From Candidatus Gracilibacteria bacterium CG2_30_37_12 (GTDB taxonomy: Bacteria > Patescibacteriota > Gracilibacteria > BD1-5 > UBA2023), in assembly GCA_001873165.1 (NCBI GenBank), contig MNYO01000038.1, positions 1 to 10,636 of the forward strand: a stretch of 10,636 nt of DNA, written 5' to 3'. Made by a program: the position numbers and the translations under genes. Numbering within the stretch: the first letter of the stretch is position 1; the number at the start of each line of letters is the position of its first letter. The notes beneath the pieces were generated by a model. The model searched no databases. It had not been told where the DNA came from and worked only from the letters and a program-made list of their open reading frames with translations. Below, one piece after another: positions 100 to 10,280 of the stretch.

Positions 100-696
100 T
101 TATGCCTCTTTTTTCTTAAAGAGTATTTCCATTTCTGTGTCTGTGAGTTCTATTTTTGGATGATTCCATAATGGATTACTTCACTTTGAATAGAAAAGAA
201 TCATATCTTTAATATTTCCATATGCTTTTCTGGGGAAATTTTTCGGATTACATTTAATTCTTGTAATATCATTTCGGAAGTTTTCTACTCAAAAAACCTC
301 ATCCATTATAATTTTTATATAATGCCCGATTTTATAATCTATGTGAAGATATATTGAGCCATCCTCTGATAATAATTCTCTCAGTAAAATCAATCGTTCT
401 CGAATAAATTCCAAAAACTCTGCTCACACACGGGTATCACTATAGGCTATAGTATCTTCTTTCCTCATACTTATTGTACTTGTTCTATCTGGATTTATTC
501 GAAATTCAGTATTTGTGGCAAATGGAGGATCAATATATACAAGTTTAACTTTTCATTTTAATCAGTTTTCTAATAATCCTTTCATTACAGAAAGATTATC
601 TCATAAAATGAGAATCTTTGAATCTTTAGAGGATATATCTATTTTTTTTGGCAATTGTATCGGAAAGAATCTGTTTCTCCGATTTTTTGCCTTCAT
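100..696 (-). CDS. Beta-class site-specific DNA methyltransferase, probably truncated
   Basis: The 198-residue product read with UGA as glycine is the N-terminal half of a beta-class (N6-adenine or N4-cytosine) DNA methyltransferase of a type II system. Visible motifs are ILILGDNLSVM at 28-38, the catalytic motif IV DPPF at 56-59 after KVKLVYI, and LLSEDGSIYLHID at 108-120. A family-typical IKDMILFYSK follows near 162-171. Six glycines are TGA, including the one in LGDN. In this class the target-recognition region, motif X and SAM-binding motif I (FxGxG) follow the catalytic half. Here a TAA ends the frame at 100, before any of them. Shifting frame by one base just before the stop gives a short stretch reading NGKK, which resembles the family continuation, so a frameshift in the A-rich tract near 105-120 is likely. 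The ATG lies 24 bp after the endonuclease stop, in the same frame and same operon. Activity without motif I is doubtful. Confidence 0.8.
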
Positions 697-720
697 AATG
701 AAGAAACATGGTCGGAGAAA

Positions 721-1503
721 TTAGATTTGATATAAAAATTCACGCAAGACTAAACTACTCATAATATTGGCATCAGAGTATTTTTCAGTTATGCTTTTAT
801 GGAGTTTGTTTCCTCCATGAATATAAAGAATCCCGTCAAGAATTGCTATAGGAATAGCTTTCAAATTTGGTGTATAGAGCGTGCTTATTGCATCTTCAAA
901 TTGAGCATTTTGATGTCATCAGAAATCCGTGAGAAATTTCGCTTCTCAAACAACATATTTTCCATTAAATCTCCCAATAAAATCAAGTCCTTTATTTCGT
1001 TCATATCAAAGATGTTCTTGTGCAAATCGCATCATCCCAGCATCTCATTCATCGAGAATTGCATTAGCATTTGAACTCAAAAAGTCATTAAGTTTTATTG
1101 GTTCGATTCCGAGAGATTTCTTTCGGAGCCAATTTCTGAATGCTGGTCCCATTTGTCGATTAGTTTCCTTTGCTTCGCTACAATTTTCGTAGACTTTATC
1201 TATTCACATCTCATAAATTCTTCCACAGATTCGATTTATTGTTGCAGGATTACGAGAAATAGAATTTTTATCTCGTTTGAGATATGCGACATACGAATCT
1301 TTTATAGGGAAAAGATCAAGTTCTATAAGATGTTTTATGAGTTTTGTATTATCTTGATTTTGATATGCAGATTCTACATCAGACCATATCCTTGTATTTA
1401 TATCCCTGATTCATTCAGGTATAGTTGGATAGACTTTAAATAAATCATCCAGATAACTTTGTTGATTTGCATATTCTATACTGAGCTTAAGCCATGGATT
1501 CAT
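721..1503 (-). CDS. Type II restriction endonuclease, PD-(D/E)XK type
   Basis: The 260-residue protein is continuous only if seven TGA codons are read as glycine (G31, G100, G153, G166, G186, G195, G196). A PD-(D/E)XK nuclease core is visible as GLDFIGRFNGKYVVGEAKFL at about 172-191: Asp174, then Glu187 and Lys189. It is followed by a conserved-looking TDFGGHQNAQFEDAI. Upstream, ETNRQMGPAFRNWL (113-126) resembles a motif I associate with Tsp45I-like endonucleases, but that family and the recognition site are guesses. The adjacent downstream beta-class methyltransferase fixes the role as cleavage of unmodified foreign DNA. The start is the ATG at 1503-1501, giving MNPWLKLS; there is no ribosome-binding site. 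A terminator-like hairpin ends a few bases before this ATG, so expression may need read-through. The gene itself looks intact. Confidence 0.75.
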
Positions 1504-1504
1504 A

Positions 1505-1719
1505 CAAAAAAGCATTTACGGAAGTAAATGCTAAAATAGAACTTGAATGTAGATATATGTTTTAGCGAAACAAAAGGGCAACTAATGCACTCGTTCGCTA
1601 AAACATACACACTTTTTTCATACTCGAAAGGACAATCAAAGGGCTGAGCAACAATTAGTTGCCCTTTTAATTTATTCGAGTATCTAAAAGATAGTACTTC
1701 AAAATATGTATATTTTAGC
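1505..1719 (-). ncRNA. Candidate structured RNA or leader with two kissing hairpins
   Basis: Read on the minus strand, hairpin 1 pairs 1675-1683 with 1620-1628 (9 bp). Hairpin 2 pairs 1594-1607 with 1556-1569 (14 bp, perfect; loop 1570-1593). The loop of hairpin 1 holds 1654-1668 and the loop of hairpin 2 holds 1572-1586. These two loop segments are perfect 15-nt reverse complements, so the loops can pair with each other. An alternative local hairpin (1638-1668, using GCAAC/GTTGC and AAAGG/CCTTT) competes for the same bases. A possible promoter lies at 1726-1753 and a terminator-like hairpin at 1511-1532, giving an RNA of about 210 nt. The structure could equally act at DNA level, for instance as a recombination site. 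The family is not recognised. Confidence 0.35.
1511..1532 (-). terminator. Terminator-like hairpin abutting the endonuclease start
   Basis: Perfect 9-bp stem AGCATTTAC/GTAAATGCT with a 4-nt loop. On the minus strand it is followed by a run of T, and then within a few bases by the endonuclease ATG. The polarity fits an intrinsic terminator or attenuator for a minus-strand transcript that starts between 1540 and 1790. Confidence 0.55.
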
Positions 1720-7951: not shown

Positions 7952-8020
7952 AAGAGGAAAAATAAGTAGAAATTAAAGTGAGTGTATAGTATGGAAAATG
8001 GGGAAAAAGTAAAGAAGAGA

Positions 8021-8145
8021 CTTCTGAAAAACTTGTTCTTCAAGCTTAAATTTCCGTTTCCTTATTCACTGTACTATTCTGTACAGCTCATTCGGATACT
8101 CAATTTGCACTTGAATTACTTCCTTTTTGAGAAATCTCAGGATTC
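8021..8145. repeat. Dispersed hairpin repeat, copy A
   Basis: It aligns by eye along its length with 10149-10280 in the same orientation. Shared blocks are GAAAAACT.GTTCTT, GTTTCCT..TTCACTGTAC, GTACAGCTCA.TC and AATTACTTC. At its centre is CTGTAC-TATTCT-GTACAG (8069-8086). The stem is conserved between copies while the loop differs. It lies between trpS and the next gene, directly after the trpS stop on the minus strand. Confidence 0.65.
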
Positions 8146-9249
8146 TTATAACCCTACTACTTTTTTCACTTCCACCATCTTAGCTTCGATGCGAGCGTTC
8201 ATAATACGAGCTCATTCTTGAAGCTTGACTTCGATGAGCTCGGGATTCTGTTCGAGCATCGCACGAGCGTCGTGGTAGGGTTTGAGGTATTCGGTGAGTA
8301 TCTCCAAGAGTTCGAGTTTGGCATGGCCATACCCATACCCTGGTGCGAGGTATTTTGTTCGAATCGACTCGGTTCTGTCGGCAGTGGCGAACGTCTTGAT
8401 AAGGGCGAAAACATTGCAGGTATCAGGAGTCTTGATGTCATCGACTCACTTGGAATCGGTCACGATCGACATCACTTTTTTCTTCAGAGTTTTCGCATCG
8501 TCAAATATCCCGATGAAATTATTGTACGATTTGCTCATCTTGCGCCCATCGATTCCGGGGAGGATTGCAACGTTTGGTTCTATATGTTCGACAGGGAGTT
8601 TGAAAATATCTGCTTTGTAGGTTTTATTAAAAGCTTTGGCGATATCGCGGGTCATCTCGAGGTGCTGTTTCTGGTCGGCTCCAACAGGTACAATATCGGT
8701 ATCATAGGCGAGAATATCGGCAGCCATCAAGATTGGATAGTTAAAAACTCCCATGTTGAGTTGGGGAATAACTTCAATCTTCGCGTTCAAACCTTGCGTT
8801 TCCTCGCTCATCGTACTATCTCAGTACGCCTCGCTACGGTCCGCGGTTTTCGCACGAATATTATCGTTCTTTCCCAACTCAGATTCTTGTATTTCTGCGA
8901 GAATTTTATTTTCTGCATCCTTAAAACTATGTGCCCGAAGCATAAGCGAATACGGTGTCACTGTATTCAGTATCCAGTTGAGCTTAGGAATGAGCGGGAT
9001 ATCTGACTGGCGGAAGATATGAACAGGGGTATCGATGCCGAATATGGAAAAATAGGTGAGTATCATTTCATGAGTGTTTTTCTGAAGGTCCGTGGCATTC
9101 TTGACCGATGTGAGAGCATGGAGATCCGCAATGAAAATCGCTCCATCATTTTGTTCTGCAATGCGTTTAAAAGGAAGAACGGCCCCGAGGAGATTTCCGA
9201 GGTGCATCTGGTCTCCAGTTGGTTTCACTCCAGTAAGTATTTTCTTCAT
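8146..9249 (-). CDS. trpS: Tryptophanyl-tRNA synthetase with an internal insertion
   Basis: A 367-residue class I synthetase charging tRNA-Trp, somewhat longer than the common 330-350. The HIGH-type motif is in [14 protein letters not shown] (6-19), [12 protein letters not shown] follows at 169-180, [18 protein letters not shown] near 187-204, and KMSKS in [13 protein letters not shown]. Three TGA glycines (8821-8823, 8446-8448, 8212-8214) must be read for the whole protein. Between SFKDAENK and NMGVFNYP, where relatives have roughly 10 residues, there are about 50. They are polar and acidic and include [17 protein letters not shown]. The DNA of this segment resembles the dispersed repeat (see copy C). 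The start at 9249 gives [12 protein letters not shown], the normal N-terminus. A weak hairpin (9369-9377 with 9397-9405) lies upstream; no trp regulatory site is recognised. Confidence 0.95.
8765..8890. repeat. Diverged repeat copy C, inside trpS
   Basis: Plus-strand DNA here aligns by eye with copies A and B: GAATAACT...TTCAAA, then GTTTCCTCG.TCA (nine bases identical to copy B), a GTAC...GTAC hairpin, CTCGCT.CGGT, and further on CGCACGAAT..TTA and CAGATTCTT as in copy A. Its hairpin is CGTAC-TATCTCA-GTACG (8812-8828). The pair next to GTAC is C-G instead of the T-A of the other copies, so the fold is kept. The length matches the extra TrpRS residues. Identity is only moderate, so homology is not proven. 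Confidence 0.45.
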
Positions 9250-10122: not shown

Positions 10123-10148
10123 GCCCGCACTTCTTTTGGGAAGAAACC

Positions 10149-10280
10149 TTTGAAAAACTCGTTCTTTACATTCAAAGTTCTGTTTCCTCGTTCACTGTAC
10201 AACTTTCGTACAGCTCACTCTGGTACGTACTTTTCATATAAATTACTTCGCTTTTGAAAGGTTTGCAGAATTTTTAGAAT
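10149..10280. repeat. Dispersed hairpin repeat, copy B
   Basis: Partner of copy A, with the central hairpin CTGTAC-AACTTTC-GTACAG (10195-10213). It lies between the tRNA promoter and tRNA-Thr, so it should be transcribed as part of the tRNA precursor leader. It could be a neutral insertion or a processing signal. Confidence 0.65.

Follow-up and report, generated by a model that had tools for sequence, protein, structure and literature searches.

A dispersed palindromic repeat within trpS and other protein genes of UGA-glycine Gracilibacteria

The trpS locus and its extra segment

The window, here the whole 10,636-nt stretch of contig MNYO01000038.1 (Candidatus Gracilibacteria bacterium CG2_30_37_12) that was analysed, contains trpS and three copies of a hairpin-forming repeat, two of them intergenic (copies A and B) and one within the gene (copy C; Table 1). 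The trpS product, tryptophanyl-tRNA synthetase (TrpRS), matches TIGR00233 at 240.7 bits (cut-off, 176.75). Its interval between the HSFKD and NMG motifs spans 53 residues vs 8 in two members of the genus with an empty site, and the surplus, estimated at about 40–45 residues in the initial annotation, is 45 when measured against these relatives. All but 10 of the 135 surplus nucleotides belong to the palindrome. An AlphaFold2 model based on a 31-sequence alignment has a mean pLDDT of 87.6, with 249 of the 367 residues at ≥90, and the sole reported stretch below 50 (residues 128–160) lies within the element-encoded part; the enzyme is predicted to be folded with the repeat-encoded segment disordered, and the element is probably without function for TrpRS. 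The trpS copy is known from one assembly. Among the best 120 of 7519 proteins, there was no near-identical second sequence and none sharing this insert, the best full-length identity being 80%; a 221-aa fragment reached 91% identity over 60%.

Table 1. Positions of trpS, the three repeat copies and the parts of copy C in the window
Feature	Position	Strand	Remarks
trpS, tryptophan--tRNA ligase, host gene	8146..9249	-	367 aa in code 25
Copy C, palindromic element within trpS	8757..8881	+	125 bp; antisense to the gene; encodes approximately residues 123-165 of TrpRS
Copy C left terminal arm, TGAGTTGGG	8757..8765	+	perfect complement of 8873-8881
Copy C right terminal arm, CCCAACTCA	8873..8881	+	pairs with the left arm; 9-bp perfect inverted repeat
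Copy C apical hairpin, CGTAC-loop-GTACG	8812..8828	+	helix well conserved across the family
In-frame TGA within copy C (TrpRS codon 143)	8821..8823	-	glycine in code 25
Copy A, intergenic, 3' of trpS	8017..8138	+	127.8 bits with model R1
Copy B, intergenic, ~20 bp 5' of tRNA-Thr	10144..10264	+	129.0 bits with model R1

The palindrome of copy C aligns end to end with the two intergenic copies. A hairpin repeat inside trpS had been recognised in the initial annotation, and its presence holds, though the limits given there (8765–8890) are about 8 bp off the true ends; the GTAC..GTAC hairpin with an altered yet still paired flank is present as described, while the nine-base block reported as identical, GTTTCCTCG, is common to copies B and C and reads GTTTCCTTA in copy A. 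The likeness of A and B to C, for which a comparison with shuffled sequence had been proposed, was scored against 2000 dinucleotide shuffles; strict scoring found the A/C local score equalled in four shuffles and the B/C score in none, and softer scoring found neither equalled. A covariance model built from 11 copies with C left out (R1) matches positions 8758–8880 at 95.5 bits, with E-values of 5.9e-22 for the window and 5.3e-20 for the 946-kb genome that are rough because the model calibration was short. The reverse strands of A, B and C echo in the same search at 28.7–40.4 bits, and the next match in the window scores 16 bits. The nearest kin of copy C among the copies compared is L302, at 80%. 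At the level of sequence, these comparisons confirm bases 8757–8881 as a full copy of a dispersed palindromic repeat of approximately 120 bp.

The repeat family and its copies in protein genes

Across the source genome, R1 has 34 matches at E ≤ 1 and 31 at E < 1e-5, the latter mostly 116–146 bp long (one of 96 bp and one of 163 bp) and forming one long hairpin. All seven genomes of the genus that were searched have matches, from 10 to at least 61 per genome, and, with the source genome included, R1 is positive in 21 of the 59 genomes of the first search of relatives and in nine of 239 genomes drawn from the phylum. An alignment of 64 distinct copies (A4; 74 matches at E ≤ 1e-8 from 63 loci) forms one long hairpin of 36 base pairs with 92.9% of cells paired, and both sides have changed in 463 cells, a count as high as which occurred in none of 500 shuffles, though A4 was fitted to the covariance model and is hence biased toward structure. 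RNAalifold applied to an unfitted alignment (A2) recovers 36 pairs with double changes in 24 of them. Several copies (L102, L104, L123 and similar) have an additional internal hairpin of ~24 nt (ACCCC..GGGGG, then AGCTATGGCTTC or near variants).

Copies were called in frame when the codon score of both flanks indicated coding and a frame was open through the element, with a codon training set that included six of the host genes, element masked. The test is conservative, because only 173 of 331 control positions were called coding; copies close to contig ends may fail it, and, as it demands open frames, disrupted genes may escape it. By this measure, 13 of the 30 copies examined in the source genome are in frame within protein genes; the other coding-region matches for which a genome scan had been proposed were found. 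The host proteins above NCBIfam cut-offs are TrpRS, AspRS, RadA, a heavy-metal P-type ATPase (two copies), RlmD and MurB, those matching below cut-off are RsmF-like, DinG-like and DusB, and the remainder comprise a PriA-type domain and an acetyltransferase domain, both above the Pfam cut-off, and one protein without a family. A further possible in-frame case (L100) failed the test, its upstream part being too short. The acetyltransferase-domain gene (L116:1265-2446) has two adjacent GKND-type stretches, perhaps two copies of which one is degraded. Four of 17 other copies in this genome have coding flanks on one strand; one of the four (L105) precedes a T4SS-pilin match, and L115 appears similar by eye.

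In relatives from the genus, where copies were sampled by score and not exhaustively, 6 of 21 copies in G001, 3 of 21 in G005 and 1 of 18 in G003 are in frame. Judged by best family matches, their hosts include PheT above cut-off and a BatA-like VWA protein, PcrA-like helicases, SufS and RlmE below cut-off, along with two proteins without a name. Within genes, the element occurs in both orientations and is read in several frames, and the in-frame copies contain zero TAA or TAG codons in frame. The net insert length could be measured in six cases (117, 126, 129, 135, 162 and 195 nt) and is always a multiple of three.

Empty orthologous sites were shown among sister species for six genes (trpS, aspS, radA, dusB, copA and murB). 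The aspS site is empty in all five genus relatives searched, with 91–96% amino acid identity over the larger aligned part. For the P-type ATPase (copA), site 1 is empty in G001 and G005, while G001 aligns through site 2 and G005 does not. The DusB element occurs in G004 and G001, where the dusB match contains a TAG, and is absent from G002, G003 and G005; the MurB site is empty in G003–G005, and G001 has a copy elsewhere in murB. The RadA element is present in the source genome and G001 and absent from G002–G005. The two RadA copies (L099:1501-1620 in the source genome and L241:2541-2660 in G001) share one site but point in opposite directions and differ in the extra sequence at their flanks, and the site may be either an insertion hot spot or the product of an inversion. 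No clear target-site duplication was seen when the junctions of the six genes were compared by eye with the empty sites. The terminal arms in trpS, dusB and aspS seemed, also by eye, to hold short host-derived stretches.

For trpS, where genomes were assigned to loci L015–L018 and L023 by coordinates, the site is empty in G003 and G004 and spans 53–71 residues in G001, G005, G006 and two outer relatives (L019 and L020). None of the inserts in these five relatives is palindromic (fold z, -0.1 to -1.0 vs -4.2 for the window), and a search of them with R1 found no match. For the proposed check of whether the segment is unique to this lineage, two of the relatives compared lack an insert and five hold unrelated ones at the same site. 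An identical insert in all close relatives, which would have argued against the initial annotation, was not found, two of the relatives being empty and the other inserts differing. Judging from the sequences compared, the repeat is not alone in occupying the trpS site, which accepts inserts in other species too; it may either have entered an empty site or have replaced part of an older insert.

UGA as glycine and the choice of frame

Within the TrpRS of Gracilibacteria, 33 of 40 TGA codons in conserved columns coincide with glycine in 22 homologues that use the standard code, and at loci of the source genome 25 of the 34 TGA codons that close a coding stretch are followed by further coding vs 1 of 34 TAA/TAG codons. 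All 23 in-frame copies from four genomes contain in-frame TGA (one to four each), with TGA making up 53 of 954 element codons vs 31 of 7038 control-window codons. Frame ('-',2) is open in 45 of the 64 distinct copies under code 25 and in one of 64 under code 11. The repeat would accordingly seem translatable here largely through UGA read as glycine, a point absent from the initial annotation, with translation inferred from open frames and homology.

The frames differ in what they encode, the '-' frames, which are open mainly through UGA being glycine, having a hydrophilic mean GRAVY of about -0.95 and 1.4–2.5 TGA per copy and the '+' frames about +0.1 and 0.4–0.7. The 23 in-frame copies use '-' frames in 19 cases and '+' frames in four (AspRS, RsmF-like, ATPase site 2 and the RadA of G001), and their peptides have a mean GRAVY of -0.95. 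An even choice among open frames was rejected, as the absence of any TGA-free copy among the 23 would then have P = 6e-5; the bias in frame can be explained by hydropathy and is no proof of selection for TGA. In G005 (L292:208-1743) and G003 (L293:586-2160), a gene that a motif suggests to be RimO-like contains a copy in frame that belongs to the trpS-type subfamily and has zero TGA in the matched stretch; these copies were found by protein similarity and stand outside the 23.

Beyond the genus, R2, a second covariance model for which 11 distant copies were used, has 31 matches in G161, 17 in G209, 16 in G286 and two to seven in each of five other genomes. Distant relatives of the element (L316, L317–L326 and L327–L355) occur in several families of Patescibacteria, often directly adjoining gene ends. 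In the eight genomes, coding continues beyond only 1 of 15 TGA codons (one of two in G107; no TGA was seen in G096), and UGA appears to be a stop. Under code 11, one of the 72 copies examined from these genomes lies in frame, its host being a RarA-like ATPase of G286 (best family match below cut-off). The in-frame share differs between the genus (23/90) and the distant genomes (1/72) with a Fisher p of 8e-6, and between the source genome (13/30) and the distant genomes with p = 1.5e-7, a contrast that is a lead and not proof because copies are non-independent and sampling is unequal. UGA recoding helps in-frame copies and is not required, because the RimO-like insertion is TGA-free and the rarA-like copy is in frame in a genome with UGA as stop.

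Origin of the element and comparison with known systems

Copy C is best read as one member of a dispersed, probably selfish palindromic element of UGA-glycine Gracilibacteria, a reading to which we assign a probability of about 0.86. The element would be copied at the DNA level, the majority of its insertions into genes would be lost, and those retained would be the ones by which the frame is preserved and the protein gains a soluble, flexible, hydrophilic and disordered loop. A more tentative proposal, to which we give somewhat less than even odds, is that an old element of the Patescibacteria, located mainly between genes, became a source of new protein loops when UGA changed from a stop to a glycine codon, because this opened its hydrophilic antisense frames and would have let insertions into housekeeping genes be translated and retained.

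Several other explanations were weighed. That the trpS segment is an ordinary variable insert of TrpRS which resembles the repeat by chance or composition can draw on the unrelated stretches at the same site in five relatives and on the four shuffles that equalled the strict A/C score, but can hardly be right: a model blind to copy C recovers it over its full length, paired ends included, and the inserts of the relatives are unmatched by R1 and fold no better than shuffles. For the window copy, the leave-one-out score refutes both the ordinary insert and the chance likeness. It is also very improbable that the element is spliced out after transcription or skipped by the ribosome to leave mature proteins without it. 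The hosts are conserved enzymes and a hairpin could assist excision or bypass, yet excision or bypass would require none of the features seen, namely the lack of in-frame TAA/TAG, the insert lengths in multiples of three and the hydrophilic peptides, and removal is disfavoured because of this. A functional RNA or RNA-level signal, such as a terminator or processing hairpin, with the genic copies as by-catch, is unlikely as well, though it would fit the strong compensatory pairing, the many intergenic copies and the position of several copies near gene ends in distant genomes. RNA families normally favour G-U over A-C pairs. On the strand as read, the cells of the alignment comprise 2026 Watson-Crick pairs, 78 G-U (44 of which fall at a single column pair), 86 A-C and 76 others, giving no excess of G-U; on the opposite strand there are 86 G-U vs 78 A-C, and without that one column pair 86 vs 34, a mild wobble excess that would suit an RNA. 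Because these counts swap with the strand, they favour upkeep as a DNA palindrome over upkeep as RNA only weakly. Further against an RNA, all three window copies score on their reverse strands as well, and genic copies occur in both orientations. An Rfam 15 search of the window at gathering score returned two tRNAs and nothing else.

Mobilisation in trans, as of a REP/REPIN-like or MITE element that depends on a transposase of the IS200/IS605 type (Y1) or of another kind, is doubtful but carries more weight. The hairpin shape, the dispersion and the presence or absence of copies among sister species are all as would be expected, and the source genome has 14 Y1_Tnp matches. However, in a transposase search that covered Y1_Tnp alone, the domain was found in two of seven genus genomes vs the element in all seven, and G005 has at least 60 scored element matches and no Y1_Tnp match; additionally, the terminal arms vary between copies and the junctions have no clear target duplication by eye. 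Mobilisation by a Y1 transposase or RAYT is not supported, as Y1_Tnp does not track the element. The Y1_Tnp matches of the source genome are often fragments (G000:C124:8786-9160, L310 and L312–L315), and none was found in five genus relatives.

The selfish palindromic element preferred here resembles most closely the Rickettsia palindromic elements (RPE). RPE and their Wolbachia counterparts are described, as far as these sources go, as hairpin-forming, dispersed sequences of 100–150 bp that occupy intergenic positions as well as in-frame positions within many conserved genes (PMC10969869, PMC2229807, PMC4316617, PMC3767692), and the parallel with in-frame RPE insertion drawn in the initial annotation is supported by the leave-one-out model, the 13 of 30 copies in frame and the empty sites. 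The Gracilibacteria element is likewise a dispersed palindrome mostly within the 100–150 bp range, with intergenic copies, in-frame copies in conserved genes and empty sites in orthologues. Loci with different inserts in orthologues have been reported for RPE (PMC3767692), to which trpS and radA would correspond here, and for Rickettsia gmk the account given is that a translated RPE product was found and the host enzyme was active (PMC2229807). By behaviour and published descriptions, the analogy that the element works like RPE is supported. Unlike RPE, the element belongs to a different phylum, inserts in two orientations and several frames, depends for its in-frame copies largely on UGA as glycine, and has distant relatives in several families of Patescibacteria.

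Other systems are less alike. Bacterial MITEs (ERIC, Correia/NEMIS, RUP and YPAL) are characterised in the source consulted as small, hairpin-forming and dispersed, some fusing in frame to genes (PMC2229807), whereas the element has palindromic ends with arms that differ between copies in place of fixed terminal inverted repeats, showed no clear target-site duplication in the six genes inspected by eye, and had no parent IS in the search with Y1_Tnp alone. REP sequences, given as 20–40 bp (PMC3733652), are also interspersed palindromes, but the element is far longer and lies inside genes, and, unlike in a REP/REPIN-RAYT system, Y1_Tnp occurs in just two of the seven genus genomes that bear it. 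The coding palindromes of nematomorph mitochondria are, in the account available, inverted repeats in translated genes with both arms encoding conserved host protein (PMC6649704), while the element here is added and dispersed. The repeat treated in PMC6851277 is, by its description, a different one arranged in tandem. A search by titles and the openings of abstracts, mainly outside the subscription literature, found no publication on palindromic elements within Gracilibacteria genes.

Palindromic elements inserted in frame have been described chiefly in Rickettsia and Wolbachia, along with sporadic examples among other bacterial MITEs, and would now extend to an unrelated lineage with genomes of ~1 Mb, where they lie within housekeeping enzymes at sites that are filled in some sister species and empty in others. 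Such sites provide a natural experiment in how proteins absorb approximately 40 foreign residues and connect the reassignment of a stop codon with the expansion of a repeat into coding sequence; if the proposed role of UGA is true, a change of the genetic code has shifted the range of sites open to a selfish element. Annotation under the standard code would truncate the genes that bear the element. Elsewhere in the window (100–1515, minus strand), two ORFs resemble, by eye, a DNA methyltransferase and a restriction-type partner.
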